A DNA stretch of 51,697 bases, taken from contig JAFZWA010000014.1 in assembly GCA_017617525.1 (NCBI GenBank), positions 1 to 51,697 of the forward strand, given 5' to 3'. The notes below the pieces were generated by a model. The model saw only the letters and a list, made by a program, of their open reading frames with translations, had not been told where the DNA came from and ran no database searches. This stretch comes from Clostridiales bacterium (GTDB lineage Bacteria; Bacillota; Clostridia; Saccharofermentanales; Saccharofermentanaceae). Shown here piece by piece: positions 1,212 through 51,680 of this stretch (the stretch's first letter is position 1; every line of letters begins with the position of its first letter). The position numbers were made by a program, and so were the translations under genes.

Positions 1212-2198
1212 TCACACATATCCTTCAAATCGAACAGGAATTTGACGGCTTTTGTGATAATCCCAAGCCTTCTTCTGGTCTTTCTGCATCTGGTCTTTCA
1301 GCTCATCGAGCGATCCGAACTGCTGCTCGGGGCGGACAAACTTAAGGAGCATGACAGTTCCGTTCGTTCCGTAAAGCTGGTAATGGCCTTCGAGGATCAT
1401 GGTCTCCGTCAGTGGAGACTCATCGTCTTTATTGACCGTCGGACGAAGTCCGATGTTCGTGATCGACGGGTAAACAACGCCGTCGAGAAGGTACGCGGAG
1501 ACGTAAACACCGAATTTCGGGACGATCTTCTGCTCCGGGATACGGATGTTCGCCGTCGGAAAACCGAGCTTTCTTCCGATCTGCTGGCCTTTTTCCACGA
1601 CTCCGGAAAAAGCAACGGGGTGGTCAAGGAGCTTTTCAGCCATCTCCACTTCGCCGGATGCGATCAGTTCACGGACCCAGCTACTGCTGATCCTTCGATC
1701 TTCGTAGTTAATGGGGTCCACGGCGACGACAGTAACGTCGTTTTTCTTGCCCCAGGCCTTCAGTGCTTTTACATCGCCGGCACGGTCTTTTCCGAAGTGA
1801 TAATCCGCTCCTACCACGACGACCTTGGCCTTGATCCATTCCTTCAGGCAGACGTCCATAAAGGTCTCGGGGCTCATCCCCTTTACCTTTTCATTAAAAG
1901 GAAGCGCGAAAAGATCGTCGATGCCCATGTGGGACACCATACGGCAGCGCTCCGGATATGTAGTGATCAGATTATTCTGGGATTTACTGGCCGGCGGGTT
2001 TTCAAAGGTCTGCACAGCCGTTCTTATATTGTACTTCTTTGCTTCCTCGAGCATGGTCGCAAAGATCTTCTGGTGCCCGAGGTGAATGCCGTCGAAATAT
2101 CCGAGCGCGACAGCGCGAGAAGATCCCGCGTCTGAGGCCATAGAAGGCGTAGAGATCAGCTTTCCGTCTTTATTGATGATGCAATTCCAAACGTTCAT
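1212..2198 (-). CDS. ribF: Bifunctional riboflavin kinase / FMN adenylyltransferase
   Basis: RibF phosphorylates riboflavin to FMN and adenylates FMN to FAD. The N-terminal nucleotidyltransferase half shows the HxGH-type motif HLGH at residues 39-42 and the ISSSWVR stretch at 170-176. The C-terminal flavokinase half shows GFPTANI at 212-218. At 328 residues it is slightly longer than usual because about 25 residues precede the first motif. It lies 3 bp after truB in the conserved rbfA-nrnA-truB-ribF order and is probably co-transcribed with it. Confidence 0.95.
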   Translation of the reverse strand: MNVWNCIINKDGKLISTPSMASDAGSSRAVALGYFDGIHLGHQKIFATMLEEAKKYNIRTAVQTFENPPASKSQNNLITTYPERCRMVSHMGIDDLFALPFNEKVKGMSPETFMDVCLKEWIKAKVVVVGADYHFGKDRAGDVKALKAWGKKNDVTVVAVDPINYEDRRISSSWVRELIASGEVEMAEKLLDHPVAFSGVVEKGQQIGRKLGFPTANIRIPEQKIVPKFGVYVSAYLLDGVVYPSITNIGLRPTVNKDDESPLTETMILEGHYQLYGTNGTVMLLKFVRPEQQFGSLDELKDQMQKDQKKAWDYHKSRQIPVRFEGYV

Positions 2199-2201
2199 AT
2201 C

Positions 2202-3155
2202 TTACGCGAAAACCCTTTCTTCGCGGATCACAAGGCTTTCGTCTTCTTTCTCCGTATAGATCACGGCAACGGGCGCTCCTGCCAAAACAGTAAGAACGCG
2301 GACGCCTTCTTCTATGTCTCCCATTCTATCCTTAAAGACCGAAAAATCAAGTTTTTTGCCGTTTCGAAGGTCGGCCGCCTCGCGGTCTGTGACCTCGATT
2401 TTCGAAAGTCCTTCCATCGCTTTTATCTCTTCCACGACAAAAGCACTGTCGCCGGAACCGTAGCGTTTCTCGATCTCTTCGATCGAGAGGGCGTCATCGA
2501 TGGAGAAGCTTCCGCATGAAAGGCGTCGTAACGCCTCGCAGTACGCGCCGAATCCGAGGGAGTTTCCGATATCTTCACAGAGAGTTCTAATATAGGTGCC
2601 TTTGGAGCAGTGAACTGTCATTTCGGTTTTCACCGTCCCCACTTCTTCCCAGATCCGGTCGATTTTTATCGAGAAAATGGTTACTTTTCTGGGAGGGATC
2701 TCCACTTCCTGGCCTTTTCGGGCATAATCGTAGGCCGGACGGCCGTTGATCTTGATCGCGGAGTAAACAGATGGCACCTGGGTGATCTCTCCGACCATTG
2801 CCTGTACGGCAGTTCTTAATCTGGAATAATCGTCTTTGGAAAGATCCTGAAGTTCAGAGTCCGTCGGCATTTTTCCGCCGACGACCTCACCTTCGATATC
2901 GCCCGTGGACGTTATCTTTCCGAGCACCATCACGGCGCGGTAGGTCTTATCGTCATGCTCCATGTAGCGGAGAACGCGCGTCGCCTTTCCGACGGCCACA
3001 GTTAAAAGACCCGTGGCAAACGGATCCAACGTTCCGGCGTGACCGGCTTTTTTGATGCCGAAGATCTTTCGGATGCGGGAAACGACCGAAAACGAAGTCA
3101 TGCCTTCCGGCTTATCTACGAGGACAATGCCACAGGTTTCCGTTTTCTCAGTCAT
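2202..3155 (-). CDS. truB: tRNA pseudouridine-55 synthase TruB
   Basis: TruB isomerises U55 of the T-loop of tRNAs to pseudouridine. The first motif VDKPEGMTS is at residues 13-21. The catalytic-loop motif GTLDPFATG has the nucleophilic aspartate at D44. The C-terminal part (about residues 235-317) matches the position of the PUA-like RNA-binding domain. The start codon overlaps the end of the upstream nrnA by 4 bp (ATGA), so translation is probably coupled. Confidence 0.95.
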   Translation of the reverse strand: MTEKTETCGIVLVDKPEGMTSFSVVSRIRKIFGIKKAGHAGTLDPFATGLLTVAVGKATRVLRYMEHDDKTYRAVMVLGKITSTGDIEGEVVGGKMPTDSELQDLSKDDYSRLRTAVQAMVGEITQVPSVYSAIKINGRPAYDYARKGQEVEIPPRKVTIFSIKIDRIWEEVGTVKTEMTVHCSKGTYIRTLCEDIGNSLGFGAYCEALRRLSCGSFSIDDALSIEEIEKRYGSGDSAFVVEEIKAMEGLSKIEVTDREAADLRNGKKLDFSVFKDRMGDIEEGVRVLTVLAGAPVAVIYTEKEDESLVIREERVFA

Positions 3156-4177
3156 GTCTTCTCCAGATAGGAAGTCGCTTCTTCGATGATTCTTCCGGCG
3201 AACGAGTCGATGTCGGTGTTCTTTCCGCTGAAGCCCGCGGCTCTGTGATGTCCGCCGCCGCCGAAGATCTGCGCGAAATCCGCCGCGTCAAATCCGACCT
3301 TCGTTCTGCAGTTCACGCGGAGCTCACCGTTTTCGTTCTCACGAACGACAAATGCCGCAAGTACCGTATCGATATCGCGGAGCACGTTCACGATGCCGTC
3401 CGCGGCGCCTTCCGGCGCGTTTGTCTTTTCCATCATGTCGAGCGTGATCTTCGTGATCGCGATTCTACCATCGCAGTGAAGTTCCATCGCTGCCATCGCC
3501 ATGCCGTGAAGTCTTACCTTCCCCTCGCATGTCTCGTCAAAGAGGTGGTACGCGTTATCGGTCACGTTCGCGCCTCTTTCCATCAGTTCCGCCGCGATCC
3601 GAAAAGAGCTCGCGCGCGTATTTTCATAGGAGAATTTTCCCGAGTCGGACTGGATACCGACCATGAGGTAATCCGCAATGGCCTGGTCGACAAGTGCTTT
3701 TCCCGTAGCATCTTCCCATTCTTTGAGGAGCATATACATCAGCTCCGCGCAGGAAGCGGACTTGCCGTCCACATAGGCGTAATCGGTCTTCGGCGCGGAA
3801 GAAACGTGGTGATCGACCACGACCTTCTTTTCAGCACGCTCGAAAAGCGCCTCGCAGGCGCCCATACGGCTTCCTTCCGAGCAGTCAACGGCAAACGCCA
3901 GACCCTGGCGCGCGAAGATCTCTTCCTCGTTATCGGAAGATACGATCGTAAGAAGTTCATCGGGAATATTCATAAACGAAAGCCGCGGCGGGATCTCGCA
4001 TTCCAGGATCACCCGGGATGTATATCCCAGCTTCTCGAGGGACGCGGCCAAAGCCACGGCTGTTCCGATGCAGTCACCATCCACACGGGCGTGCGGAAAT
4101 ACCTGTATCTCTTTTTCCTTGTCGGAAGGAAGATACGCAAATACACGTTTAGAAAACTCACTCATGGTTTCCGGCAC
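3152..4177 (-). CDS. nrnA: DHH/DHHA1 phosphoesterase (NrnA-type nanoRNase/pAp phosphatase)
   Basis: Enzymes of this family degrade 2-5 nt RNAs and in several Firmicutes also dephosphorylate 3'-phosphoadenosine 5'-phosphate. The metal-binding aspartates are seen in RVDGDCIG (D33, D35) and in the VDHH motif at residues 121-124. The DHHA1 substrate loop GGGGHHRAAGF lies close to the C terminus. The length of 341 residues is slightly above the usual 310-330. Placement between rbfA (20-bp overlap) and truB (4-bp overlap) is the standard Firmicute arrangement and supports NrnA over other DHH proteins. Which nucleotide it prefers cannot be read from sequence. Confidence 0.88.
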   Translation of the reverse strand: MPETMSEFSKRVFAYLPSDKEKEIQVFPHARVDGDCIGTAVALAASLEKLGYTSRVILECEIPPRLSFMNIPDELLTIVSSDNEEEIFARQGLAFAVDCSEGSRMGACEALFERAEKKVVVDHHVSSAPKTDYAYVDGKSASCAELMYMLLKEWEDATGKALVDQAIADYLMVGIQSDSGKFSYENTRASSFRIAAELMERGANVTDNAYHLFDETCEGKVRLHGMAMAAMELHCDGRIAITKITLDMMEKTNAPEGAADGIVNVLRDIDTVLAAFVVRENENGELRVNCRTKVGFDAADFAQIFGGGGHHRAAGFSGKNTDIDSFAGRIIEEATSYLEKT

Positions 4178-4532: not shown

Positions 4533-4550
4533 GTTCTCACCCTATATGTA

Positions 4551-7361
4551 TTACTTTCTCTTAATTTCCTGCATCTCGAAGACTTCGATGATATCGCCTT
4601 CTTCGATGTCGTTGTAGTTCTCGATGGAGATACCGCACTCATAACCGGCGGCAACTTCCTTGGCGTCATCCTTGAAACGCTTGAGGGAAGCAAGCTTGCC
4701 CTGGTGAACGACGATACCGTCTCTTACGACACGAACCTCAGAAGTTCTGAGGACCTTACCGTCCTTAACGTAAGCACCACCGATCGTACCGACGGAGGAT
4801 ACCTTGAATGTCTGACGGATCTCAACGTGACCGAGAACGACTTCTTCGAACTTCGGCTTGAGCATACCGGTCATAGCGGCCTCGATATCTTCGATCGCGT
4901 TATAGATGACGCTGTAGAGTTTGATGTCTACGCCGACTTCCTTGGCCTGCTCGGTAACGACAGCGGAAGGACGAACGTTGAAGCCGATGATGATCGCGTT
5001 GGATACATCAGCCAGCGTAACGTCGGACTCTGTGATCGTACCGACACCACCATGGATGACCTTGACACGTACTTCGTCGTTCGTGAGCTTTTCGAGGGAC
5101 TGTGTAACGGCCTCGACGGAACCCTGAACGTCTGCCTTAATGATAAGGTTGAGATCCTTGATCTCGCCCTCGGCAAGTACCTGAGAAAGGTTCTCGAGAG
5201 TCATTCTCGAAGACTTGTGCAGCTGTTCTTCTCTCTGCTTGATCTTTCTCTTCTCAACGAGCTGACGGGCCATCTTCTCATCGGTTACGGCATAGAATGT
5301 CTCGCCGGCTTCCGGTACTTCCGGAAGACCTAAAATCTCTACCGGAACGGACGGGCCTGCCTTCTTCTGGGCGGCACCGTTCTCGTCGTACATCGCACGG
5401 ATGTGACCGAAGATCGGACCTGTAACGAGCGTATCACCGGAACGCAGTGTACCGCGCTGAACGAGTACTGTCGCTACCGGACCTCTGTTCTTATCGAGCT
5501 TGGCCTCGATGACCGTACCCTTTGCCTGACGCTTCGGGTCAGCCTTGAGTTCCATAACGTCTGCGGTAAGAAGGACCATCTCGAGGAGTTCGTCGATACC
5601 TTCACCGGATTTGGAGGATACCGGAACCATGATCGTGGATCCGCCCCACTCTTCCGGAAGGAGATCGTGCGAGGAGAGTTCCTGCTTAACCTTATCGATG
5701 TTCGCGCCGACCTTATCGATCTTTGTGATCGCTACGATGATCTCTGTGTTAGCGGCACGAGCGTGGTTGATGGCCTCGACTGTCTGCGGCATGACACCGT
5801 CATCCGCGGCAACTACGAGGATCGCGATATCCGTTACCTGAGCACCACGGGCACGCATCGTTGTGAACGCTTCGTGACCAGGAGTATCGAGGAACGTGAT
5901 CTGACGGCCCTTGCAGCGAACGGTGTAAGCACCGATGTGCTGGGTGATACCGCCGGCCTCGCCCTTAACGACGGATGTCGAACGGATCTTGTCGAGGAGC
6001 GATGTTTTACCATGGTCAACGTGGCCCATGACAACAACGATCGGCGGACGCGGTTTCATGTTCTCTTCGTTATCTTCGCCTTCGTCGAAGAGGATATCTT
6101 CCTCTGTGACCTCCACGATCGGTTCGGTCGTGATGCCGTATTCACCGGCAACGAGAGCGGCTGTATCGTAATCGAGTTCCTGGTTCAGTGTTACCAGCAT
6201 ACCCATCATCATGAGTGTCTTGATGACATCCGCGGATCTCTTTCCGAGACCGTCAGCGAGATCCTTGACTGTGATGAACGGCGGGAGCTCAACGTGTGTC
6301 AGCTGCGGCTTAACGACAGGTGCCGCGACGAAAGACTGACGCTTTACCTTCTTCTTGCCCTTGCCGCCCATGTACATCGAATCCAGAGCTTCGTCATTGG
6401 AAAGGATATCGGAAGCGTTACCAGTGAACTGGTTGGTACGCTTGTTACCGGATCTTCTGTCATTATTGATGGATGACTTCTGGCTGTCCTTCTTGGAATC
6501 CGCCTTCGGATCCTTTCTGTTCTTCTCGTATGCGTCACGAGCCGCGAAGTTCGCCTTCTCCTTTGTTGCCTCCGGCGGGAGATCCTGCTTCGGCTTGGAA
6601 GGTCTCTTCGGCTGGTTTCTGTTATTGTTGTAGATATCGTCGTCGTCCTTATCCTTCGGAGTGAATCCGCCGCCGAAACCACCGCGGTTTCCGCCTCTCG
6701 GACCACCAAATCCGCCGTTGTTCGGACGGCCGCCCTGTGGTCTGTCAGATCGAGGATATCCGCCGGTTCTCTGTCCGCCCTGATATCCGCCGGTTCTTCC
6801 GCCGTCCTTCGGGCGTACGAAAGTGGACGTCTCACGGGTAACGTTCGTCGTCGGTGCTTTTACAACAGCAGAGGAAAGCTTCGGAGCTTCCTTCTTTTCT
6901 TCTTTCTTCTCTTCCGGCTCTTTTGCCTTCGGTTCTTCCTTAACGGGAGCTGCTTCCTTCTTAACCGGAGCCTCTTCCTTCTTAGCAGGAGCCTCAGCTT
7001 TGACTTCCTTTTCTTCCTTCGGCTCAGCCTTCGCCTTCGGAGCTTTCTCCTCAGTTGCTTCAGCTGCCTTCTTTGTCTTGGCAGCCGTCTTCTTTGGAGC
7101 TTCTTCGTTCTTCGGAGCCTCGGCCTTTACTGCCGGTTCTGCCGGTGCCGGTGCGGGTGCCGGTGCAGCAGCTGCTTCCTTTTCGGCAGGCGCCGCGGAT
7201 CCTTCCTCTACCGGAGGTTTCTTGGCCTTTTTATTGACACGGCCGACACGAAGTGTCTTCGTTCCGGAGATACCGCTTACGGTCTTCTGCGAAACCGAGG
7301 ATTCAACCTTAGTCTCGGTAGAATCTCCCGTCTTGGTTGTTTTCTTCTCTTTTTCTGCCAT
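4551..7361 (-). CDS. infB: Translation initiation factor IF-2 with long low-complexity N terminus
   Basis: IF-2 is the GTPase that recruits initiator tRNA and drives subunit joining. The G domain is clear: G1 GHVDHGKT near residue 445, G3 DTPGHEA, then domains II-IV to the C terminus. The G4 motif reads TKID rather than the usual NKxD. The first ~330 residues are low complexity: a Lys/Glu/Ala/Pro-rich block (residues 60-165) and a Gly/Arg-rich block (190-235). This gives 936 residues against about 720 in Bacillus. An IF2_N-type segment ([17 protein letters not shown]) precedes the G domain. The upstream Shine-Dalgarno AGGAGG is strong. It lies 13 bp after ylxQ. Confidence 0.97.
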
Positions 7362-8038: not shown

Positions 8039-9187
8039 TCAAGCCTGCTCGTCGGAAGCGGCTTCGCCTTCTTCATCGTCAGCAACAGTAAAGTTCGCGA
8101 CGAAATCGTTCTGAACCATCTGCTGGAACTGGGATGTGCTCTTGATATCGATCTTCCAGCCTGTAAGTCTTGCGGCAAGACGTACGTTCTGACCGGAACG
8201 GCCGATCGCCAGAGAATACTGCTGATCCGGTACGACTACCTGAGCGTTCTTCTCCTGTGTGCCGTCTTCGTTTGTGATGATCTCCGCGTCTACACGCTCA
8301 ACCTTCGCCGGAGAGAGTGCGTTGCTGATATAGACTGCCGGATCTTCGGAATATGCGATAACGTCGATCTTCTCGTTGCCGAGCTCGTCCATGATCGCCT
8401 GGATACGAGCGCCTCTCTGACCAACGCAAGCGCCGAGCGGATCTACGTCCGGATCACGGGAGATAACAGCGACCTTGGAACGGGAGCCTGCCTCACGTGC
8501 AACGGATACGATCTCGACGATACCGTCGTGGATCTCCGGAACTTCCTTCTCGAGGAGCTTCTTAACGAGGTTCGGGTGACTTCTGGAAACGATGATCACC
8601 GGACGCTCCTTCTGTGTCTCAACTCTGAGGATGAGGAACTTCATTCTCTTGTTGAAGGAATAATCCTCGTCCTTTACCTGCTCCTGTCTCGGAAGTGTTG
8701 CTTCGGCACGGCCGATGTCAACAAATACGAAACGGTTATCGGATCTCTGGATCACACCACTTGCCAGCTCGCCGATCTTATCGGAGAATTCGGACTGGAT
8801 ACGATCGTTTTCCGTATCACGAAGCTTCTTGCTGATCGCTGCTTTCGCGGCACCTGCAGCCAGACGGCCGAGGGACTCTACATCGATGGTCATCTCGATG
8901 GTATCGCCTTCTTCGAGGTCCGGGTCGATTTCCTTTGCTTCCGCGAGGGAGATCTGTGTCTTCGGATCTGTTACCTCAGAAACAACCTCTACGACTTCGT
9001 AGACGTACATATCACCGGTCTCACGATCGATCTCTGCAAAAACCTGCTCGTTCTGCTTCGCGTCAGAGAACTCTCTCTTAAAAGCAGCTACGATCGCTTC
9101 TTCGATCGCCTCGAAAAGCACTTCCTCATCGATGCCTCTCTCTTTTGCCAGTGCGTGAATAGCTTGCAACAGTTCTTCGTTTTTCAT
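8039..9187 (-). CDS. nusA: Transcription termination/antitermination factor NusA
   Basis: NusA binds RNA polymerase, promotes pausing and affects hairpin-dependent termination. The order is an N-terminal RNAP-binding domain (to about residue 130), an S1 domain (VIQRSDNRFVFVDIGRAEA), and KH1/KH2 with the conserved loop DPLGACVGQRGARIQAI. At 382 residues it lacks the C-terminal acidic repeats of proteobacterial NusA, as usual in Firmicutes. It is second in the operon behind rimP and is a plausible autoregulator through the leader hairpin at 9710-9731. Confidence 0.96.
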   Translation of the reverse strand: MKNEELLQAIHALAKERGIDEEVLFEAIEEAIVAAFKREFSDAKQNEQVFAEIDRETGDMYVYEVVEVVSEVTDPKTQISLAEAKEIDPDLEEGDTIEMTIDVESLGRLAAGAAKAAISKKLRDTENDRIQSEFSDKIGELASGVIQRSDNRFVFVDIGRAEATLPRQEQVKDEDYSFNKRMKFLILRVETQKERPVIIVSRSHPNLVKKLLEKEVPEIHDGIVEIVSVAREAGSRSKVAVISRDPDVDPLGACVGQRGARIQAIMDELGNEKIDVIAYSEDPAVYISNALSPAKVERVDAEIITNEDGTQEKNAQVVVPDQQYSLAIGRSGQNVRLAARLTGWKIDIKSTSQFQQMVQNDFVANFTVADDEEGEAASDEQA

Positions 9188-10418: not shown

Positions 10419-10454
10419 AGGGACTGCCCGATCAGGACAGTCCCTTCTTTTTGT
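10419..10454 (+). terminator. Bidirectional terminator between the P-loop gene and thrS
   Basis: GGGACTGCCC pairs with GGACAGTCCC (one mismatch) around CGATCA; the plus strand continues TTCTTTTTG. The minus strand continues with a T-rich tract as well, so it can also end thrS. Confidence 0.8.
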
Positions 10455-10509
10455 TCTTCGGGAAAAGCACGCACCCGCTTCTTCCCTTTTCCTGCTCGAA
10501 AAGCACTCG

Positions 10510-12279
10510 TTACTTCACAGATTCTTCCCGGACTCTCTCCACGAACTTCATGACGGCCATCTCACCGATCTCCTGTTTGTCCGGTTCGAGATCACGGCTT
10601 CTCACCGATACGGAGTGGTTCGCCATCTCTTTTTCACCGACGACAAGGATGTACGGCACACGGTCCATCTTCGCCGCGCGGATCTTGTATCCGAGTTTCT
10701 CGTCGGACTTATCGAGCTCTACGCGGACACCCGCCTCGCGAAGTTCCGATGCCAGTGCTTTTCCATACTCGAGATACTTGTCCGATACCGGAAGGATCTT
10801 CGCCTGCACCGGTGACAGCCATACCGGGAACTTGCCGGCATAGTGCTCGATCAGGATGCCGATGAAACGGTCGATCGATCCGAACACCACGCGGTGCAGC
10901 ATGATCGGTCTGTGCTTTTCGCCGTCCTCGCCGATGTACTCGAGCTCAAATCTCTGCGGCAGCTGGAAGTCGAGCTGGATCGTGCCGCACTGCCACATTC
11001 TTCCGATGGAATCCCGGATGTGGAAGTCGAGCTTCGGTCCGTAGAAAGCACCGTCGCCTTCGTTGATCGCGTACGGCTTTCCGACACCCTCGACCGCAGC
11101 CTTGAGAGACGCGATCGCAAGGTCCCACTCCTCATCACTTCCGATGGAGTTCTCGGGTCTCGTCGACAGCTCGATCTCATACTTGAATCCGAAGCGGTCA
11201 TAGAACTCATCGATCAGGCGCATAACGCCCTGGATCTCCGACATCACCTGGTCTTCTCTCATGAAGATGTGCGCGTCATCCTGAAGGAACGATCTCGCAC
11301 GCATCAGGCCATGGAGCGTACCGGACTTCTCGGCGCGGTGCACGATACCAAGCTCCGCGACTCTCATCGGGAACTCCTTGTAGGAGTGCTGCTTCGACTT
11401 ATACACGAGCATACCGCCCGGACAGTTCATCGGCTTGATCGCGTAGTCCGTATCGTCGACACTCGTCGTATACATGTTCTCTCTGTAGTGGTCCCAGTGG
11501 CCGGACTTTTCCCAGAGCGTTCTCATCAGCATGATCGGCGTACTGATCTCCTCATAGCCTTCACGCGAATGGATCTTTCTCCAGTAGTCGATCAGGTTGT
11601 TCTTCAAGATCAATCCCTTCGGGAAGTAGAAAGGAAGTCCCGGACCCTCTTCCATCAGAGCAAAGAGCTCCAGTTCTTTTCCGAGCTTTCTGTGATCTCT
11701 GGCTTTTGCTTCCTCGAGCTGCTTGAGATACTCCTCGAGCATCGATGCTTTCGGGAACGAGATACCGTAGATCCTCGTGAGCATCGGGTTCTTCTCACTT
11801 CCGCGCCAGTATGCGCCGGCGACGGACAGGAGCTTGACCGCCTTAATGAAGCTCACATTCGAGATATGCGGTCCCGCGCAGAACTCCGCGTAATCGCCCT
11901 GCTTATAGAACGAGATCCTCTCATCGTCCGGGATCTCCGAGATGAGCTCCATCTTGTACGACTCGTTTCTCTCCTCCATATAAGCATAGGCCTCGGATTT
12001 CGACACATCGTAGACCTGAAGGATCAGTGACTCCTTGACGATCTCCTTCATCTTCTCTTCGATCGCTTGGAGATGCTCGTCCGAGAACTGGAATCCGAAA
12101 TCAAAGTCATAGTAGAATCCGTTCTCGATCGCAGGACCGATGCCGCACTTGGCCTCCGGGTACAGACGTTTCACCGCCTGCGCCAGCAAATGCGCGCTCG
12201 TATGCCAGAAAGCCTTCTTGCCTTCCTTGCTCTCGAAGTCCGCCTCGTGTACCTGTTGATCATTCAATAAAATCTTCAT
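10510..12279 (-). CDS. thrS: Threonyl-tRNA synthetase lacking most of the TGS domain
   Basis: ThrS charges tRNA-Thr. The start at MKILLNDQQVHE is preferred because GGAGG lies 8 nt upstream; the longer frame runs into the T-box. The editing-domain motif HTSAHLLAQ comes already near residue 26, so the usual ~60-residue TGS domain is reduced to about 20 residues. The class II core follows, with the zinc ligands C (MNCPGGM) and H (HRAEKSGTLHG), motif 2 and motif 3 (GSIDRFIGILIEH), then the anticodon-binding domain to the C terminus. The protein is 589 residues against about 640 in E. coli. Expression should respond to uncharged tRNA-Thr through the T-box upstream. Confidence 0.95.
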   Translation of the reverse strand: MKILLNDQQVHEADFESKEGKKAFWHTSAHLLAQAVKRLYPEAKCGIGPAIENGFYYDFDFGFQFSDEHLQAIEEKMKEIVKESLILQVYDVSKSEAYAYMEERNESYKMELISEIPDDERISFYKQGDYAEFCAGPHISNVSFIKAVKLLSVAGAYWRGSEKNPMLTRIYGISFPKASMLEEYLKQLEEAKARDHRKLGKELELFALMEEGPGLPFYFPKGLILKNNLIDYWRKIHSREGYEEISTPIMLMRTLWEKSGHWDHYRENMYTTSVDDTDYAIKPMNCPGGMLVYKSKQHSYKEFPMRVAELGIVHRAEKSGTLHGLMRARSFLQDDAHIFMREDQVMSEIQGVMRLIDEFYDRFGFKYEIELSTRPENSIGSDEEWDLAIASLKAAVEGVGKPYAINEGDGAFYGPKLDFHIRDSIGRMWQCGTIQLDFQLPQRFELEYIGEDGEKHRPIMLHRVVFGSIDRFIGILIEHYAGKFPVWLSPVQAKILPVSDKYLEYGKALASELREAGVRVELDKSDEKLGYKIRAAKMDRVPYILVVGEKEMANHSVSVRSRDLEPDKQEIGEMAVMKFVERVREESVK

Positions 12280-12332
12280 GTTTGTTGCCTCCTTTGCATT
12301 AATCAATAGGTGTATGTTCGCAACAACATAAG

Positions 12333-12590
12333 AAAAGCACCCGAAAAGATCTATACGATCTTTAAGGGTGCGATATAGCACGGTTCCACCTTAACTTTTC
12401 ACTTCAGATTCCAACAAATCCTAGCCTTTAACGCAGACATACGGTAACGCTTACTTCGATTTCAGCCCTACAGCTCGGGAATGGTTTTCGTTCGCGATCC
12501 TCATAAGCGGCTTCCAGCTTCACGTCGCTCTCTCTGGATGATTGCCTGCGGACTACTCTTTTCCGTCAATGCTTTTCTTATGTTATTGGT
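12333..12590 (-). promoter_or_regulatory. Threonine T-box leader riboswitch of thrS
   Basis: The minus strand carries stem I elements (GAGTAG, then AGAGAG and a distal GCTGGAAGC loop). A candidate specifier ACC (Thr) followed by the conserved A lies at 12485-12483. The T-box sequence AGGTGGAACCGTG lies at about 12390-12378. An intrinsic terminator follows (12336-12371; GCACCC pairs with GGGTGC around an inner AAAGATC/GATCTTT stem, then TTTTC). Binding of uncharged tRNA-Thr should favour the antiterminator and thrS expression. Confidence 0.88.
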
Positions 12591-12622: not shown

Positions 12623-12687
12623 TAACCCGTCTGTTTAATCAGAAGTTCCCTCTTCTTCGGCAAAAGCACCCGTCCCGAGGGAAAGAA

Positions 12688-14919: not shown

Positions 14920-14950
14920 ACCGTTACCCTCCTGTTGTCATCTTATTCTT

Positions 14951-38687: not shown

Positions 38688-38711
38688 ATATACTCTCAAG
38701 GTCAAGTATAT
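38688..38711 (-). repeat. ATATACT/AGTATAT inverted repeat behind the beta-rich protein gene
   Basis: Seven-bp arms with a 10-nt spacer begin at the stop codon of the 38711-39178 gene. No T-run follows, so it is either a weak terminator or a binding site upstream of the lipoprotein gene. Confidence 0.35.
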
Positions 38712-39399: not shown

Positions 39400-39699
39400 T
39401 CATGTCTTCTTGTCTTTGAAGTGGCGAACAACGAAGGTAAAAACGACACCGACAATAAAGCCCAGTACGGCTGCAAGGACAAACCCTCCGGCCTCCTTGG
39501 AGAGGATAAATGAACCATAGGAAGTCTCCTCCACGGATACGAGAGAACCCGAAAAAGCACTGATCACTACAAAGAGCGCGACAAACGACAGCGCCGTTGA
39601 AACGCCCAAGATACGGGTAACCCTCCGCTGATGTTTACGGCGGATCTTGTTACCGCGGATCTGAATCTCTCGCAAAGCTTCTTCGGTAGTGTACTTCAT
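39400..39699 (-). CDS. Small two-TM protein, possible regulator of the sigma factor
   Basis: 99 residues from MKYTTEEALREIQIRG (GGGAG 6 nt upstream; a longer frame adds 10 residues). A basic, helical N terminus of about 28 residues (RRKHQRRVTR) precedes two TM helices (about 29-48 and 68-90). In Clostridia I have seen such KYTTEEAL proteins encoded close to ECF sigma factors, which makes an anti-sigma-like role possible but unproven. Confidence 0.65.
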   Translation of the reverse strand: MKYTTEEALREIQIRGNKIRRKHQRRVTRILGVSTALSFVALFVVISAFSGSLVSVEETSYGSFILSKEAGGFVLAAVLGFIVGVVFTFVVRHFKDKKT

Positions 39700-39743
39700 A
39701 TCCGACTCCCTATTCTCATTTCCTTTCATCTACTTAATAGCAG

Positions 39744-42550: not shown

Positions 42551-42577
42551 AAAAGTGCTTTTCACGAAGTAAAAAGA

Positions 42578-42635: not shown

Positions 42636-44657
42636 TCAGTTACCGCCGTTCGCAGAACCGTTCGCGCCCGTGCCGCGCATCGCGTCGAAGACTTCCTTAT
42701 CCGCAAAGGAGACTTTGACGGAACGGATGAAGTGATCGTTCGAATTGGTGCGCAGGAGAAGATTGATGATCGTCTCTGTGACCGGAGCGGTCTCCATCTG
42801 GGAGAATGCTTTTCGGATCGTCCAGACGGCATCGAGTTCTTCCTGGGACATGAGCAGGTCCTCACGACGCGTACCGGACTTGTTGATGTCGATCGCCGGG
42901 AAGATACGCTTCTCGGAGAGCTTTCTGTCGAGGTAGACTTCCATGTTACCTGTTCCCTTGAATTCCTCGAAGATAACTTCGTCCATTCGGGAACCGGTCT
43001 CGATGAGAGAGGTCGCTACGATCGTCAAAGATCCACCGTTTTCGATATTTCTCGCGGCACCGAAGAAACGCTTCGGACCATAAAGGGATCCCGGATCCAG
43101 ACCACCGGAAAGCGTACGTCCTGTCGGTGTGATCGTTAAGTTATAAGCACGAGCCAGACGTGTCATGGAGTCGAGGAGGATAACGACATCCTCGCCCATT
43201 TCTACAAGACGCATCGCGCGCTCGAGAACGAGCTCGGTGACTCTTGTGTGATTCTCCGGCTTCTTATCGAATGTCGAGTAAACGACTTCGCCCTTGATGG
43301 AGCGCTGCATGTCGGTAACTTCCTCCGGACGCTCGTCGATGAGAAGAACGATGAGCTTGGTCTTCGGGCTGTTCTGTGTGATCGCGTTCGCGATCTTCTG
43401 CAGAAGGATCGTCTTACCTGCTTTCGGCGGGGATACGATCATACCACGCTGACCTTTACCGATCGGAGAAACGAGGTCGATGATACGTGTGCTCAATTCC
43501 TGTTTTCCTGTTTCCAGACGGAATCTCTCGTCCGGATAGATCGGCGTCAATCTTTCAAAGTGCGGACGTCTTCCGATCTTATCGAGCTCGACTTCGTTGA
43601 CTTTCGTGATGTAGCTTAATGCCAGGTTCTTGTCCTGACCGCGCTTCGGAAGAGCGAATCCCTGGATCTGGTCGCCCATGCGAAGACCGAATCTTCGGAT
43701 GAGGTTGGTCGGAACAAATACGTCCTGCGGAGACGGCAGATAGTTCTCACGTCTTACGAAACCATAACCGCCATCCTGTACGATCTCAAGAACACCGACG
43801 AACTCGACGGGCTCGATCTGCGGCTTGTTGTTCTCAGGGGCGTTTTCACCATCCTGCTCGGTCTTTTCGGAAGACTCTTCGCCTTCTGCTGCAGGTGCGG
43901 TGGCTTCGTTTGCCGGACGGATCTCCACGCTTCTGTGGCGGCTCTTCTTATTCTTCTTGCCCTGCTTCTCATTTTCCTTCGGCGCTTCAGCCTTTGCTTC
44001 CGCGTTCTCGGCATTTTCTTCGGCAGGCTTTTCGGAAGCTTCCTCTTTGTTTTCAGATGCTTCTTCCTGCTTCGGCTCGGCTTCTGCTTCAACAGCTTCA
44101 GAAGTTTCCTTGCCCTTCTTCGCCGGTTTCTTGCCGCGTTTTTTCGTATCCTTAGTTTCTTCCTTTTTTTCCTCGGAAGGAGCTTCTTTTACTTCTTCGG
44201 AAGCCGCAGTAACTACCGGCTCTTCCTTTGCGGCAGCCGGTTCTTCAGCATCCTTCTTTGTCTTCTTTTTCTTATCGGAAGTCTTTGCTTTCGAAGCCGT
44301 CTTCTTTTCTTCCGGCTTTGTTTCCTCTGCCGGCTTTTCTTCTACTGCTTCTTCTTTCTTCTCCGCCTTCTTCTTTGTGCGCTTGGCGGGCGCATCGGAA
44401 GCTTTTTCTTCAGAAGGAACATCTTCCTTCTTTTCTTCCGCTTTCTTCTTCGCGGGCGCCTTTTTGGACTTGGCCGGTGCTTTTGCAGAAGCCTTAGTGT
44501 CTTGCGCCTGTTCGGATTTCTTTTGTTCGTGGTCGAGGAGTGATGCCAGTTCAGCTTGGCTCATGCTCTCAGCCTGTTCCGGTGTGACGAGCTGAAATGC
44601 CAGCGCGATCGCCGAAAGTGCCTCTTTGCTCTTCGAGAAAAAATCTTCTTGGGCCAC
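42636..44657 (-). CDS. rho: Transcription termination factor Rho with long charged insert
   Basis: 673 residues, GTG start with GAGGT 8 nt upstream. A short helical N terminus is followed by about 230 residues (roughly 45-275) almost exclusively Lys, Glu, Ala and Ser. The cold-shock-like RNA-binding domain ([28 protein letters not shown]) and the ATPase core come next: Walker A PPKAGKT near residue 430, Q-loop and R-loop regions, arginine finger GSGTRR-like ([10 protein letters not shown]). The insert is of the low-complexity type linked to phase separation and regulation in some bacterial Rho proteins. A ~190-nt leader suggests autoregulation. Confidence 0.96.
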
Positions 44658-46132: not shown

Positions 46133-46975
46133 GTGAAGAATCTATTGGCATATGTGCTTATGCTGTGCGGAACGGTAGCCGTTTTCTTCGACGGGATCCT
46201 GCCCTCCTGCGTGATTCTTGCCCTGACCATCCTCGGATATATCGGAATGCCGTTTTTCGCAAGGGCCCTCGTTGACGGTTTTTTCCTCACGAAAAGCACC
46301 TATAAGTATTTCCTTCGCGTCGCCCTAACGGCCTTTCTGTCGCAGGCCGCGATCCTTTATGTGTATCTCGTCTGGGACCGTTCCCCGGAGCCCGAGCGTT
46401 TCAATATCGTATTCACCTGGCTGATCGCGTTCACCTTCCTTGTCGGTCTGGAACTTCTGGTCTCGCTTCCGCGCGACCGCGTCGCCTCGATGAATCTTCT
46501 CGAACCGAATCAGACGTCGCACAGCACCAGATACGGTGTCGTGATCTCCAGCACCGAAGCCAACAATCTTCCGAAAGGCATGAAAGTCCCGAACTGGCCG
46601 AGGACCACGCTTCACGGCATCGCGATCATGCTTTTTGCGATCTGCATGGTCCTGATCACATTCATGCCGCTTACGATGTCCATGATGAGCGTCATGTGCA
46701 CCATCATGTTCTACTTCCTGCACCGCTGGAAGATCGACTCGAGAGTCCTTGTCGCGACAACTTTCTACTGCGCGTTTGCCGCATGTTACACATACCTTTA
46801 TTTCCGCATGACCGGCATCGTCACATGGGAAGGTATTTCACTTCTGGGATTCCTTTTATGCCTTCTTCTTCCGAGCAAGAAGAGAAAGAAGCCGAAGTGG
46901 TTTTATCGCCTGTTCTATCTCTTCTACCCGGTCTCGATCCTGCTGTGCGCGCTGGTCGCGTCACTTGTCAGCTGA
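46133..46975 (+). CDS. TraX-family multi-TM membrane protein
   Basis: 280 residues starting at GTG with GGGGTG upstream. About nine TM helices; the C-terminal pattern KKPKWFYRLFYLFYPVSILLCAL is characteristic of the TraX/acyltransferase-like family. TraX acetylates F-pilin in conjugation, but chromosomal clostridial members have no known pilin partner and none is visible here. It is divergent from mreB and convergent with the zinc-ribbon array. Confidence 0.72.
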   Translation: MKNLLAYVLMLCGTVAVFFDGILPSCVILALTILGYIGMPFFARALVDGFFLTKSTYKYFLRVALTAFLSQAAILYVYLVWDRSPEPERFNIVFTWLIAFTFLVGLELLVSLPRDRVASMNLLEPNQTSHSTRYGVVISSTEANNLPKGMKVPNWPRTTLHGIAIMLFAICMVLITFMPLTMSMMSVMCTIMFYFLHRWKIDSRVLVATTFYCAFAACYTYLYFRMTGIVTWEGISLLGFLLCLLLPSKKRKKPKWFYRLFYLFYPVSILLCALVASLVS

Positions 46976-48475
46976 TCATTCCTCTTCCCATTCAGAATCA
47001 TGAAAGTAGCTCAGATCCATAGATCCTGCTTCCCCGCTTTTTAGTGCCTCCAATCGGATCATATTCGCGACGATCTGTCGGATGTTACCGATCGCATACA
47101 CACTGGAATCATCCAACTTGGATACTTCTTCCTCGACAAGCCACAGATGAGCTTGATTATCTTCCATCAATCTTCTTAAATTGTTTATTTTATCGGCAAG
47201 ATCATACATTCTGGCCGTTTCCTGCGGCGTCAACTCTCCAGGGCCAATAGATTTATCTCCACCCTGTTTGGCATATAGCACTTTGTATTCTTTCGTCGCA
47301 TTTTCATATTCCCATTCCATATGTTTCCGTTCCTTGAACAGACTGTCTTTCTTTCTTCTGTGAACATTCGACGGACTGGAAGATACAGCGAAAGATTCAA
47401 TTTCCGGCACGAGATTTTTGAATCCTTCGAAATACGGTCTGTCACAGTCTTCACAGGCAGCAAACGCCTCTTCAGAGCGTTCTTTAAAAGCCGGAATATA
47501 TACTTTATGCGCAAAGCTCTCCGGATCTGCCATAACACTCTGAAGATCCTGTATTTTGGTCGAGCACATGATGCGTCCGCGAAGCGCCTCATAGTTAGAG
47601 GGATCGGCGGCAAGGATGTGTTCATAAAGAGCGTCTGCTTTTACGTACTGCTGCTTTTCAAAGGCATCTTTCACCTCAGAAAGCACCGTTTCATCACGGA
47701 TGAAATCGAAGTCAAACGTCAATCCGCAGAACGGGCACTCGTATACCTGTCTGTTCAGATTCACGAGCACTTCTCCGCCGCAGGATGCGCAGGATGGAGC
47801 GATCTTCAAGAACGCCTGCTTTTCGTTGCCATAGGTTGCTTGCTTTTCGGAAGCCTGTCTTTTTGTCTCCTCTTTCACCTCGTCCGGTTCCAGTTCTTGA
47901 AGCTGTGCATACAGTTTGGCAAATTCCTTGTTAAACTTCGAAAGTCTCGACCTGATCTTTGCGAGTTCTCCTGCTCTTTGCGCATTGTTCAGGGGAACCG
48001 TGGCGAATTTCGAGTAGATCTTTACCGCTCCTTTATCCAGACTTATCTGTTGCTGCTTGTTTCCTCGAATGAACGTCGCGAGTTCCCTCATAAGAGAGAG
48101 CCTGTAGAAATATGTTTTCCCGTCCTGATCAGCCATCTTTTGAACTCTTAACAGTGTCGCGGGAAGAAGACGTACAGTTCTGTCCGGATCACTCAAAAGT
48201 TCCGGACGGTTGATCCCTGATTCACAAAGAAGGATACCGCGAAGCGCGATAAAATTGTGCGGGTCTTTTTTCAGGATAAACTCGTACTTCTCTTTTGCGG
48301 AATCATACTGAAGCACTTTCTGAGAGGCAGCCGCCTGTTCCAGAATATCCCTTAAACGAAAATACTCGTAATCGTAGAAAATACCGCAATACGGACATTC
48401 GTACTGCTGTTTGTCGTTATTGACGATGAGAACACCGCCGCACTTTGTACAACTGTGACTCTTGATCAGTGTCAT
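46976..48475 (-). CDS. Zinc-ribbon/TPR-like protein, third member of a tandem array
   Basis: 499 residues made of two similar halves. Each half begins with a zinc ribbon (C9-x2-C12 and C27-x2-C30; then CASCGG ... CPFCG near residue 225-250) directly followed by a helical unit of TPR type (AKEKYEFILKKDPHNFIALRGILLC; KADALYEHILAADPSNYEALRGRIMC). A coiled-coil C terminus follows. No TM helix. The start overlaps the stop of the second member by 4 bp. Its first ~107 bp after codon 4 are identical to those of the second member. Function unknown. Confidence 0.78.
   Translation of the reverse strand: MTLIKSHSCTKCGGVLIVNNDKQQYECPYCGIFYDYEYFRLRDILEQAAASQKVLQYDSAKEKYEFILKKDPHNFIALRGILLCESGINRPELLSDPDRTVRLLPATLLRVQKMADQDGKTYFYRLSLMRELATFIRGNKQQQISLDKGAVKIYSKFATVPLNNAQRAGELAKIRSRLSKFNKEFAKLYAQLQELEPDEVKEETKRQASEKQATYGNEKQAFLKIAPSCASCGGEVLVNLNRQVYECPFCGLTFDFDFIRDETVLSEVKDAFEKQQYVKADALYEHILAADPSNYEALRGRIMCSTKIQDLQSVMADPESFAHKVYIPAFKERSEEAFAACEDCDRPYFEGFKNLVPEIESFAVSSSPSNVHRRKKDSLFKERKHMEWEYENATKEYKVLYAKQGGDKSIGPGELTPQETARMYDLADKINNLRRLMEDNQAHLWLVEEEVSKLDDSSVYAIGNIRQIVANMIRLEALKSGEAGSMDLSYFHDSEWEEE
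48357..48463. repeat. 107-bp block identical to 49994-50100
   Basis: The 5' coding parts of the second and third array genes are identical over 107 bp, including synonymous positions. Both flanks diverge abruptly (AAAC versus GCGA-type sequence inside the gene, and several differences near the start codon). Confidence 0.95.
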
Positions 48476-50112
48476 TTTTCGTATTCTCCTTCTTCAACAT
48501 TTATCGGGTTTCCTTTGCCCTTGGAGGTTTCGATCTTTACCATCTCCCGCAGGTATTTCTCGATCAGCTTTTTACTGTGTTCACCTTGATCGCCAAGTTT
48601 ATTCACTTCAGAAGATGCTTCTTCGACTTTCTGTTTCAATTGCTTATTGGCTTTTCGCGCGGTCCATGCATCTTTTCCGGAATCTGCCACGATCAGATAG
48701 TCTTCGGCTTCTTCCTGAAGTTTCTCCAAACGCTTCTGCTCTTTTCTGGCAAGGCTGTTCGGATTCATATCTCCCTTGTAAGACTCATATTCCGATATCG
48801 CGTTTCCGAATAGTTCAAAGTATGGCCTATCCTCCTGTTCACAATGGGAAAGCGCGTCCGTGATACGCTCGTTCACGGTCGGGATGTGTGCTTTTCGCAT
48901 AGAGGAAACAATATCTTTTGAAGCCGTCTCTAGATTCTTCCATTTCGCTGCACAAAGGACACGCCCACGAAGCGCGGTGAAGTTTTTCGGATCAACGGTA
49001 AGGATGTACTTAAAGATCGCATCTGCCTCAACAAACTGGCACTGATCAAGTGCATCCTTTGCCTCAGCCACCGCCGTATCATCACGAATGAAATCGAAGT
49101 CATAGGACATTCCGCAGAACGGGCATTCATACACCTGTCTGTCCAGATTGACGATCAGCTCGCCGCCGCATTTTGCGCAGGATTGGGACTTCTTAAGATT
49201 CACCTCTGAAGAATCTGTTTTCTCCGATCCGGTACTGCTTTTTTCTTCCGGAAGAAGTCCGAGAAGTTCCTTGTAAAGCTTTTGGAATTCTGTCTGGATA
49301 GACCTGCTTTTCGCCTTCAGTTCCTCATAAGATCCTTCATCAACAGTTACATGTTTTCCGGTTCCGAGAGTATCGATGTTGTACTTCATTTTCAGATCTT
49401 CACGTGTTCTCTCATAGTGTTCTTTTCCATCCGTTCTGCTGCCGATCGCGCAAAGACCAAGGGCAATAAACACAGCCGCGAGAATGTAGTTATAGTATCC
49501 GATGTCCAACGGATCCACTTTGTATCCGACAATGACGATCACTACGGCAAGCACCAGGAAGAATCCGCCCAGGAAGACTTTGCCGGCCGGATCGGATTCG
49601 ACATAGACTTCTCCTTTTTGTTCCTTTTCGTGAAGCTCCTTCAGCAACTTACTTTTCTGCTGATTGAGTGTCTCGATGGGCTGCATTTTCCGGCGGTTGT
49701 TCATATACGATTTCGAATACTCGTTCATGATCCGAAGTTTAGAAAAGAACGGCTTATTATCGGGAAGCGCCTTCTCCTCGCTTTCGTTGATCGAAGCCGG
49801 TGTGATGCGTCGGAAGTTCTCGATCTTTCCTAACTCTTCCACCTTGCTGATATTCGCATCACAGAGGAACTTACCGATAAGCGCACGGAAATTGTGCGGT
49901 TCCTTCGTAAGAACGAACTCATACTTCTCTTTTGCAGAAGTGTACTGCAATACTTTCAGAGAGGAATCTGCCTGATCGAGGACATCGCGCGAACGAAAAT
50001 ACTCGTAATCGTAGAAAATACCGCAATACGGACATTCGTACTGCTGTTTGTCGTTATTGACGATGAGAACACCGCCGCACTTTGTACAACTGTGACTCTT
50101 AATTAACGTCAT
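48472..50112 (-). CDS. Zinc-ribbon/TPR-like protein with two TM helices, second array member
   Basis: 546 residues with the same two-half layout as its neighbours: zinc ribbon and helical unit at residues 1-90, and again around 310-400 (CAKCGGELIV ... CPFCG; EADAIFKYILTVDPKNFTALRGRVLC). It differs in having two TM helices between the halves (about residues 175-195 and 205-225), which would anchor it and could place the others at the membrane through complex formation. ATGA overlaps couple it to both neighbours. Confidence 0.78.
   Translation of the reverse strand: MTLIKSHSCTKCGGVLIVNNDKQQYECPYCGIFYDYEYFRSRDVLDQADSSLKVLQYTSAKEKYEFVLTKEPHNFRALIGKFLCDANISKVEELGKIENFRRITPASINESEEKALPDNKPFFSKLRIMNEYSKSYMNNRRKMQPIETLNQQKSKLLKELHEKEQKGEVYVESDPAGKVFLGGFFLVLAVVIVIVGYKVDPLDIGYYNYILAAVFIALGLCAIGSRTDGKEHYERTREDLKMKYNIDTLGTGKHVTVDEGSYEELKAKSRSIQTEFQKLYKELLGLLPEEKSSTGSEKTDSSEVNLKKSQSCAKCGGELIVNLDRQVYECPFCGMSYDFDFIRDDTAVAEAKDALDQCQFVEADAIFKYILTVDPKNFTALRGRVLCAAKWKNLETASKDIVSSMRKAHIPTVNERITDALSHCEQEDRPYFELFGNAISEYESYKGDMNPNSLARKEQKRLEKLQEEAEDYLIVADSGKDAWTARKANKQLKQKVEEASSEVNKLGDQGEHSKKLIEKYLREMVKIETSKGKGNPINVEEGEYEK
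49994..50100. repeat. 107-bp block identical to 48357-48463
   Basis: Second copy of the identical block, codons 5-40 of the middle array gene. The first array gene (51,57x-51,66x) has the same protein motif but many nucleotide differences. Confidence 0.95.
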
Positions 50113-51680
50113 TTTTCCTGTTCCTCCGTGACATCTTTTGGGGAGTTTCTATTCTTCTCCCATTCGACCAGTTCTCTTAAGATGGCGCCGATCTGACGCT
50201 CCGCGGCTTTGCCCTTTTCGTTAAGGACTTTGATCTTGTCATTTGTCTCGTCAAGACGATCCCATAGGATCTCCTTTGTCGAATACGCATCCATGATCTG
50301 ATCATCCAGATCATGGATCCTTTTCATGTTGATCAGCCCTCCGATTAGGTTCTTACCGTAAGTGTTACTCCAACGGACACGACTGCGTTCTCTTTCCAGA
50401 TCCTTGATATAATCACCGACTTCTTCATGACCATCTTCGAGGCGCTGCTTGTTCTGCCTGTTCTTTTCGTAGGGACTTGTGTTCTGATTGTAGATCCTAA
50501 CCTGCGGAATGATCCTCTTGAACTGCTTGAAATACGGTCTGTCGCTCTCCTTGCTCCTTTCGATCGCCTCATCGATGCGCGCTTCCATCGAAGGAAGATA
50601 TACTTTGCGCATGCGGCCGATCACACTGATCGTCGGGATCGCCGTCCATTTCGCCGCGCACAGGATACGTCCGCGAAGCGCTTCGAAGTTTGACGGATCG
50701 ACCGTCAGAATATATGCATAGATCGCGTCCGCCTTGATGAACTGCTTCTTCGAAAGCGCCTCTGCCGCTTCTTTTTCCGCGGTCTCGTCGCGGATAAAAT
50801 CGAAGTCGAAAGTAAGACCGCAGAACGGACATTCATAGAGCTGTCTGCTCAGATTGACGATCAGTTCACCGCCGCATCCGGTACAGCACTGCGAATTCTG
50901 AAGAGTTACCGTCGTGACGTTATCCTCCTTCTCGTCATCGCCGTCTCCGCTTGCGATACCCGGTTTTTCAAGGTTCTGCGGATCTTGTTCAAACAGTTTT
51001 ACCGAAAGCTCGACAAAATGATCACGTACCGCCTTTTTCTCCGCGGCTTCAACAGCCGCCGGGCTCTTTGCTTTATTGGCGGCCGCCTTTTCATTTTTCT
51101 CCTTTTCGATAAACTCCAGTTCGGGATCTTTTCCCTTGAAGAAGTTCGACACTTTTTCTTTGAATGTCTCCTTCTTTTCCATATCCTCATAGAGCTTGGA
51201 TATATCGCAAAGGCCGGTCAGATCCATAGCCTCTTTCGATTCGACTTTTTTCTTCGGGTTTGCATCTGCGCAGTAATCTCTGGCGATGGTGTTCATCTCC
51301 ATGAGCGTCTCAAAATAGGGCTTGTTCTCGGGAAGTGCTTTTCCCGCGGCATCGGAAATAGTCTCCGGGCTGATCTGCGCGACACGCGCGATCTTTAAAA
51401 GCTCGGATGGACGGTTGATCTTGGATTCACTTAAGATCTTTCCCTGAAGCGCGACAAAATTGTGCGGTTCCTTCTGAAGAAGAAAATCGTACTTTTCCTT
51501 TGCGGAATCAAATTGAAGGACTTTCAGCGAAGAGGCCGCCTGATCCAGGATATCCTGGGAGCGGAAATACTCATAATCGTAAAAAACGCTGCAATACGGG
51601 CATTCGTACTGCTGACGATCGTTATGGACGGTCAAAGCACCGCCGCATTTGGTACATGTGTGGCTCTTGATCAATGTCAT
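50109..51680 (-). CDS. Zinc-ribbon/TPR-like protein, first member of the tandem array
   Basis: 523 residues; N-terminal zinc ribbon (C9-x2-C12, C27-x2-C30) and helical unit, then a Lys/Glu/Ala-rich segment (about residues 165-215). A second ribbon (CTGCGGELIV ... CPFCG) and helical unit follow (KADAIYAYILTVDPSNFEALRGRILC), and a coiled-coil end. No TM. GGAGG lies 9 nt before the start, at the window edge, so whether more members lie upstream cannot be seen. Confidence 0.78.
   Translation of the reverse strand: MTLIKSHTCTKCGGALTVHNDRQQYECPYCSVFYDYEYFRSQDILDQAASSLKVLQFDSAKEKYDFLLQKEPHNFVALQGKILSESKINRPSELLKIARVAQISPETISDAAGKALPENKPYFETLMEMNTIARDYCADANPKKKVESKEAMDLTGLCDISKLYEDMEKKETFKEKVSNFFKGKDPELEFIEKEKNEKAAANKAKSPAAVEAAEKKAVRDHFVELSVKLFEQDPQNLEKPGIASGDGDDEKEDNVTTVTLQNSQCCTGCGGELIVNLSRQLYECPFCGLTFDFDFIRDETAEKEAAEALSKKQFIKADAIYAYILTVDPSNFEALRGRILCAAKWTAIPTISVIGRMRKVYLPSMEARIDEAIERSKESDRPYFKQFKRIIPQVRIYNQNTSPYEKNRQNKQRLEDGHEEVGDYIKDLERERSRVRWSNTYGKNLIGGLINMKRIHDLDDQIMDAYSTKEILWDRLDETNDKIKVLNEKGKAAERQIGAILRELVEWEKNRNSPKDVTEEQEK

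Follow-up and report, generated by a model that had tools for sequence, protein, structure and literature searches.

The subject of this report is an eight-base word, AAAAGCAC, which recurs on both strands of a 51,697-nucleotide stretch of DNA (hereafter the window) from a Clostridiales bacterium of the family Saccharofermentanaceae (assembly GCA_017617525.1, contig JAFZWA010000014.1, positions 1 to 51,697). The word is strongly enriched, nearly balanced between strands, set in an extended motif, spelt in dialects among relatives, turned over by substitution and more strongly retained where it is common, and the competence and pilus machinery is present. AAAAGCAC probably forms the core of a self-recognition sequence of the DNA-uptake type, used in natural transformation by a genus of rumen Clostridia and convergent with the DNA uptake sequences (DUS) of Neisseriaceae and the uptake signal sequences (USS) of Pasteurellaceae.

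Word sites in the window

The window contains 32 copies of AAAAGCAC, 15 on the plus and 17 on the minus strand, whereas 100 dinucleotide shuffles of the window averaged 1.1 copies and never exceeded 4. These copies and their strand balance had been reported in a sequence-only reading of the window, and on recount all positions and strands proved correct. Eighteen of the 32 read GAAAAGCAC and five read GAAAAAGCAC, also as reported, and the related form GAAAAGCAT is present in seven copies. According to our gene caller, 15 words lie within genes in the sense and eight in the antisense orientation, and nine (28%) are intergenic, in keeping with the quarter estimated earlier; one of these nine (39553) overlaps an uncalled open reading frame (ORF). 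The recurrence of a long form, TTCTTCGGRAAAAGCAC, was borne out; its copies begin at 10454, 14946 and 33945, which differs by one or two bases from the positions first given. The sites are as follows.

1763..1770, minus strand, word AAAAGCAC, sense in gene 1212..2198 (minus)
2439..2446, plus strand, word AAAAGCAC, antisense in gene 2202..3155 (minus)
3694..3701, minus strand, word AAAAGCAC, sense in gene 3152..4177 (minus)
6854..6861, minus strand, word AAAAGCAC, sense in gene 4551..7361 (minus)
9114..9121, plus strand, word AAAAGCAC, antisense in gene 8039..9187 (minus)
10454..10470, plus strand, long form TTCTTCGG[AG]AAAAGCAC, intergenic, word at 10463
10499..10506, plus strand, word AAAAGCAC, intergenic
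10755..10762, minus strand, word AAAAGCAC, sense in gene 10510..12381 (minus)
10912..10919, minus strand, word AAAAGCAC, sense in gene 10510..12381 (minus)
12333..12340, plus strand, word AAAAGCAC, antisense in gene 10510..12381 (minus)
12662..12669, plus strand, word AAAAGCAC, intergenic
14946..14962, plus strand, long form TTCTTCGG[AG]AAAAGCAC, intergenic, word at 14955, inverted partner at 14979
14979..14986, minus strand, word AAAAGCAC, intergenic, inverted partner of 14955
17471..17478, plus strand, word AAAAGCAC, antisense in gene 15826..17550 (minus)
21839..21846, minus strand, word AAAAGCAC, sense in gene 21288..25025 (minus)
25079..25086, minus strand, word AAAAGCAC, intergenic
26527..26534, plus strand, word AAAAGCAC, antisense in gene 25096..27117 (minus), spelling varies among relatives
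27712..27719, minus strand, word AAAAGCAC, intergenic
28377..28384, plus strand, word AAAAGCAC, antisense in gene 27962..28420 (minus), in 0 of 17 aligned relatives
28629..28636, minus strand, word AAAAGCAC, sense in gene 28417..29226 (minus)
29651..29658, plus strand, word AAAAGCAC, antisense in gene 29230..31173 (minus)
29991..29998, minus strand, word AAAAGCAC, sense in gene 29230..31173 (minus)
31398..31405, plus strand, word AAAAGCAC, antisense in gene 31262..31750 (minus)
32387..32394, minus strand, word AAAAGCAC, sense in gene 31740..32582 (minus)
33945..33961, plus strand, long form TTCTTCGG[AG]AAAAGCAC, sense in gene 33601..34434 (plus), word at 33954
39031..39038, minus strand, word AAAAGCAC, sense in gene 38711..39178 (minus)
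39553..39560, plus strand, word AAAAGCAC, intergenic by the gene caller, overlapped by ORF 39400..39729 (minus)
42555..42562, minus strand, word AAAAGCAC, intergenic
44477..44484, minus strand, word AAAAGCAC, sense in gene 42636..44657 (minus)
46292..46299, plus strand, word AAAAGCAC, sense in gene 46133..46975 (plus)
48888..48895, minus strand, word AAAAGCAC, sense in gene 48472..50112 (minus)
51335..51342, minus strand, word AAAAGCAC, sense in gene 50109..51695 (minus)

The gene at 21288..25025 (minus) presumably encodes DnaE. Positions 46976-51695 hold three tandem paralogues of about 500-546 residues that share a cysteine-rich (CxxC) start, MTLIKSH.CTKCGG.

Genome-wide enrichment

The genome to which the window belongs (G000) is a 2.47 Mb draft in 64 contigs, the window included. 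It contains 607 copies of GAAAAGCAC, 318 forward and 289 reverse, and 30 copies (15 and 15) of the reversed word, which served as a control. Background models were applied to a sample of about 780 kb of this genome (one third, also including the window), where the core has a density of about 0.42 per kb. An order-5 Markov model ranks AAAAGCAC first by z-score among the 8-mers with at least 15 copies in the sample (325 copies versus 130, z 17), a test that is conservative because the model partly absorbs the word.

Genes were called with a simple codon-usage script, which found 658 genes covering 90% of the sample. When codons were shuffled synonymously within each gene, with protein sequence and codon usage kept, AAAAGCAC ranked first under this codon-aware background as well, with 240 copies in genes versus 31-34 expected in repeated shuffles. 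The excess was equal in both orientations (sense 117 versus 16.3, antisense 123 versus 17.4). Runner-up 8-mers either contain the AAAAG or AAAGCAC of the word or have a z-score less than half as high. Preference for particular codons or amino acids might in principle produce the word as a side effect, and one sense frame does dominate, as 90 of the 117 sense copies read A-AAA-GCA-C. A codon artefact was nevertheless rejected by the synonymous shuffle in this sample, and the antisense copies, which fall mainly into two frames (57 and 55 of 123), are no less in excess. A favoured amino-acid pair combined with codon choice was likewise rejected as the cause because several frames, both orientations and intergenic DNA carry the word; the use of several frames and both orientations within genes, described earlier from the window, is also seen in the sample.

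Placement, strand and orientation

The word is about three times as dense between genes (1.09 per kb) as within them (0.34 per kb), the intergenic class being slightly inflated because the gene caller misses some short genes (e.g. 39400..39729). The 240 of 325 sample sites that lie inside genes, in both orientations, are distributed over 205 of the 658 genes with at most three in any one gene. The spacing of sites is near random (coefficient of variation 0.95). On inverted pairs, which the sequence-only reading had described at gene ends, the support is weaker: they are rare, with eight pairs within 60 bp among the 325 sites. In the contigs mapped, the three longest stretches free of the word extend from L099 16232 to L123 13555, from L111 4526 to L112 237 and over L252 6385-19403. 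They contain the operon for ribosomal proteins, the genes of ATP synthase and the pilus operon, and not prophages (names read from the proteins).

The combination of G+C and a T-run resembles the end of a transcription terminator, which would offer another by-product explanation of the word. Of 85 intergenic words, 9 follow a hairpin stem of at least seven pairs, compared with 68 of 364 control T-runs, which were drawn at random as 15% of all such runs. Stems are therefore rarer before words than before the controls, and terminators were rejected as the source of the intergenic excess. An origin of the word in codon or amino-acid preference or in terminators is, in our judgment, very improbable.

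Strand use bears on a second alternative, that of a Chi-type recombination and self-recognition site read on one strand by AddAB or RecBCD, a role that could likewise render a word common, specific to a genus and different among relatives. Chi words usually have a strong skew along the direction of replication and are read as 5-8 bare nucleotides. The very high frequency of this short word, its presence in both coding and intergenic DNA and its different spelling in related species would all suit such a site, as would a mild strand preference: in stretches with a clear GC skew, which was used to assign the strands, 123 copies lie on the G-rich and 170 on the C-rich strand. However, the G-rich fraction of 0.42 falls inside the spread of 8-mers composed of the same letters (0.39-0.70), orientation is nearly balanced both genome-wide (318:289) and with respect to genes (117:123), and the informative flanks extend from about -12 to +12. 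No strong replichore skew, and with it no strong orientation bias along replication, was found in these counts, and we regard a Chi-type site as unlikely.

Extended motif

Among 321 aligned sites, with the first A of the word numbered 0, the upstream flank prefers C at -7 and -4, T at -9, T/C at -6, G/T at -3, C/G at -2 and G at -1, and the downstream flank T/C at +8 and T/G at +9; weaker preferences are for T at -12 and +21. Intergenic sites (n=83) have stronger flanks, with G-1 in 82%, C-7 in 69% and T-9 in 63%. Because of these preferences, a double-stranded recognition site of about 20-25 bp fits the data better than a bare 8-mer. No long conserved repeat around the copies was found within 45 bp on either side of the aligned sites.

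An extended degenerate motif is typical of a protein that binds double-stranded DNA, and the word could in principle mark the places, about a thousand in each genome, where a regulatory or chromosome-organising protein binds. The intergenic excess would be in keeping with this, as would the orientation of words in gaps between co-directional genes, which in the direction of the genes appear as GTGCTTTT in 37 cases and as AAAAGCAC in 12; 24 of these 49 words lie at most 60 bases from the upstream stop codon. On the other hand, three quarters of the sites (240/325) are within genes in both orientations, many are unshared between species and their spacing is near random. Such a binding site seems to us distinctly unlikely.

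Distribution and dialects among relatives

Words were counted in 98 whole genomes, comprising 23 of the genus, 35 of other genera of the family and 40 of other families of the order. GAAAAGCAC is present in the relatives of the same genus, with 80-610 copies in the 23 congeners, 7-113 in the family genomes and 7-38 in the order genomes, and strong enrichment is limited to one genus. Absolute counts are the better guide to enrichment because the reversed-word control is low in some other genera (57 versus 4 in G055). The rumen origin of G000 is presumed from its relatives.

Differences in spelling among these relatives lie beyond what the window alone could show the earlier reader. AAATGCAC is present in 664 copies in G010, 594 in G011 and 577 in G017, and in 53-157 copies in the other 20 congeners. 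It is the top 8-mer of G010 by synonymous shuffle (43 versus 5.6, and 43 versus 4.7 in a repeat), and there its flanks are much like those of AAAAGCAC (T-9 55%, C-7 67%, G/T-3 84%, T/C+8 84%), with G-1 lost. The flanks of AAAAGCAC itself are weaker in G010 (n=23), and there are hardly any in G022 (n=22). A DnaE tree does not unite the three AAATGCAC genomes: it pairs G011 with G017 at full support and places G010 away from them, on a backbone that is poorly resolved.

Window position 26527 has an orthologous place in 19 aligned relatives, eight of which carry AAAAGCAC; G010 and G011 have AAATGCAC there, G017 has GAATGCAC, and several others have G at the variable position. This is one clear example of in-place dialect replacement; G010, G011 and G017 give 7, 8 and 11 aligned words, respectively, numbers too small to judge replacement across the genome. 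In direct alignment, AAATGCAC faces AAAAGCAC of G000 in one of five places in G010, one of six in G011 and none of five in G017.

Copy numbers of another form, AAAAGAACTG, are elevated across most of the genus, with 10-291 copies in the 23 congeners versus 9-26 in five other family genomes and 4-21 in 18 genomes of the order; it is most abundant in G019 (291) and G005 (218) and is not raised in G007 (10). AAAAGAACT is sense-biased in G000 (73:10) and the flanks of AAAAGAAC are weaker, so AAAAGAAC(TG) is held to be a tolerated variant, not a proven third dialect. In the intergenic DNA of G007 (L156-L167), CAGGCCTA occurs 20 times versus 0.5 expected, and the overlapping words AGGCCTGA and GGCCTGAA are also strongly repeated, which suggests a dispersed intergenic repeat family.

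Retention and turnover of sites

Retention was measured as the word being kept at aligned places, in comparison with control words of the same composition. In G002, 47 of 60 words are kept versus 97 of 320 controls (p 4.5e-12). When the eight word-rich congeners are pooled, the figures are 76 of 114 versus 140 of 509, and 29 of 54 versus 43 of 189 (p 3e-5) when G002 is left out, although pooled places are not independent, many being the same window sites compared with several species; within the latter pool, significance is reached individually by G012 and G005 only. In five intermediate species, 15 of 42 words are kept versus 21 of 158 controls. There was no retention excess in the three AAATGCAC species (5/26 versus 27/114) or in G022 (11/53 versus 50/280). 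The gradient fits a word that some lineages maintain and that has been relaxed or has changed its spelling elsewhere, with G007 as the exception.

Between G000 and G002, the words differ by 27 substitutions and no gaps, and elsewhere differences amount to 50 substitutions and 3 gaps in G022 and 17 and 2 in G007. Many sites are not common to other species. Sites arise and decay by point mutation, not by insertion. A dispersed mobile repeat or its insertion target would account for the high copy number, but the copies share only about 25 bp of degenerate sequence and differ from their counterparts by substitution, and we find this explanation scarcely credible.

Competence and pilus machinery

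The sequence-only reading had proposed a check for ComEA/ComEC and a pilin-type receptor; genes for ComEA, ComEC and a pilus are present. ComEC is found in 21, DprA in 23 and ComEA in 22 of the 23 congeners, and a PilB-class ATPase gives a strong match in 22 of them by our own reading of the bit scores. In G000, Pfam matches and gene order place PilB, PilT, PilC, PilM and PilN in a cluster with four pilin-like genes, three of which were scanned and all match the N_methyl motif. The protein in the PilO position of this operon has no Pfam match and is assigned to PilO only tentatively.

A lone second pilT-like gene (L255:4303-5379) has no pilus neighbours in the 20 kb examined. It scores above the cut-off in 22 of the 23 congeners and in 1 of 17 genomes of other family genera, and was not found in G007, the congener with the fewest copies of GAAAAGCAC. 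This distribution is suggestive in relation to the word, though confounded with descent. One minor pilin of G000 (L252:10705-11211; 168 residues) has three cysteines near the C-terminus that are invariant in 22 orthologues, with C or H placed 2-5 residues past the first cysteine in 21 of the 22, by our own reading. The tail looks like a small zinc or metal knuckle, and this minor pilin is a candidate receptor. A search of solved structures with the minor pilin alignment returned weak matches, the best of which was a geopilin (E 0.026).

Proposed role of the word

The evidence supports the proposal of the sequence-only reading as far as "uptake-like" goes; that the word is an uptake sequence proper, with pilus binding, biased uptake and drive, is what we infer. 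None of the outcomes that the earlier reading had named as refuting was seen in the genome or in the 780 kb sample. In the proposed mechanism, PilB and PilT would drive a type IV pilus whose pilin or tip protein binds double-stranded DNA, with a preference for the motif of about 20-25 bp around AAAAGCAC. On retraction of the pilus, ComEA and ComEC would import one strand, which DprA and recombinases would insert by homology. Fragments bearing the word would enter more often, and word-bearing alleles would in consequence replace word-less ones, so that point mutations would build up the word on both strands as far as coding constraint permits. If the preference of the receptor shifted, the old word would decay and a one-base dialect such as AAATGCAC would take over.

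Several observations weigh against an uptake role. The ranges of GAAAAGCAC counts touch, as G007 has 80 copies and three genomes of another genus (g5) have 95, 108 and 113, and five congeners (G007, G009, G015, G021 and G022) are low in both main words despite having the genes. PilT is above the cut-off in 16 of 17 genomes of other family genera with only 7-113 copies of the word, so the machinery is background and not proof. The strand preference of 123 to 170 is mild but not zero (p 0.007), and the 37:12 orientation preference in co-directional gaps (p 0.0005) counts against the proposal because a pure uptake role does not predict it. With codon typicality as a proxy for foreign genes, the observed-to-expected ratios of the word from the least to the most typical quartile are 6.5, 9.1, 9.2 and 6.5; the least typical quartile is not depleted relative to the most typical, and the proxy thus offers no evidence that the word is excluded from foreign DNA. 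Retention also fails to follow abundance in a clean way. The word-rich G013, G004, G006, G008 and G016, with few sites each, are not significant one by one, while five species in which the word is scarce still keep 34 of 141 versus 121 of 929 (p 0.001, odds ratio 2.1), a smaller excess, and among the scarce species G007 (6/18 versus 11/133) and G009 (8/29 versus 28/282) are above their controls.

Having weighed these points, we continue to favour the uptake reading. In its wider form, towards which we lean with some reserve, the word would represent a third independent uptake-sequence system and the first in Clostridia, in which a drifting receptor preference splits species into dialects (AAAAGCAC, AAATGCAC and possibly AAAAGAAC, whether as a tolerated variant or as a third spelling) that limit gene exchange, the receptor perhaps being the minor pilin with the zinc-knuckle-like tail. 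Confirmed uptake would be a first for this branch of bacteria, and a third origin would mean that sequence-specific uptake evolves repeatedly and independently of an outer-membrane route. Uncultured rumen bacteria would be predicted to be naturally transformable, with the tag for DNA entry named. The 23 congeners, with their differing dialects and densities, offer a natural experiment on uptake drive and species barriers.

Comparison with known systems

Sequence-preferring uptake is known in the proteobacterial families Pasteurellaceae and Neisseriaceae, where excerpts of two papers describe it as convergent and as having variants within each family (PMC5031613, PMC7811141). The excerpts report that USS evolve by point mutation (PMC7811141) and, for DUS, that there are eight dialects (PMC3630211). 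Portions of two others place uptake words in the terminators of both families and name none in Clostridia (PMC13020248, PMC1852404). Our literature searches of open-licence papers found no uptake word reported for Clostridia among the matches listed.

The present word resembles the DUS of Neisseriaceae, which has the pilin ComP as its receptor, in being a short non-palindromic word with hundreds to thousands of copies on both strands, in genes and between them, in having one-base dialects among relatives, and in the presence of a type IV pilus. It differs from DUS in its unrelated sequence, in its Clostridia host, in a use in terminators that is not prominent here and in a receptor that is at present a candidate. 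With the USS of Pasteurellaceae it shares a core of about 9 bp within a longer degenerate motif, evolution by point mutation and lineage-specific variants, as described in part of PMC7811141. Its sequence is again unrelated, and its informative flanks lie mainly upstream of the core, unlike those of USS with its AT tracts. The DUS word GCCGTCTGAA has 1 copy in the 780 kb sample, and the USS words AAGTGCGGT and ACAAGCGGT have 8 and 5; with the DUS and USS consensus so rare (1 and 8 copies), the word is not DUS or USS by descent. Like the Chi of RecBCD and AddAB, it is a frequent, short, self-marking word that differs between species, but whereas Chi is strand-skewed and bare, AAAAGCAC is nearly balanced between strands and lies within a long flanking motif.

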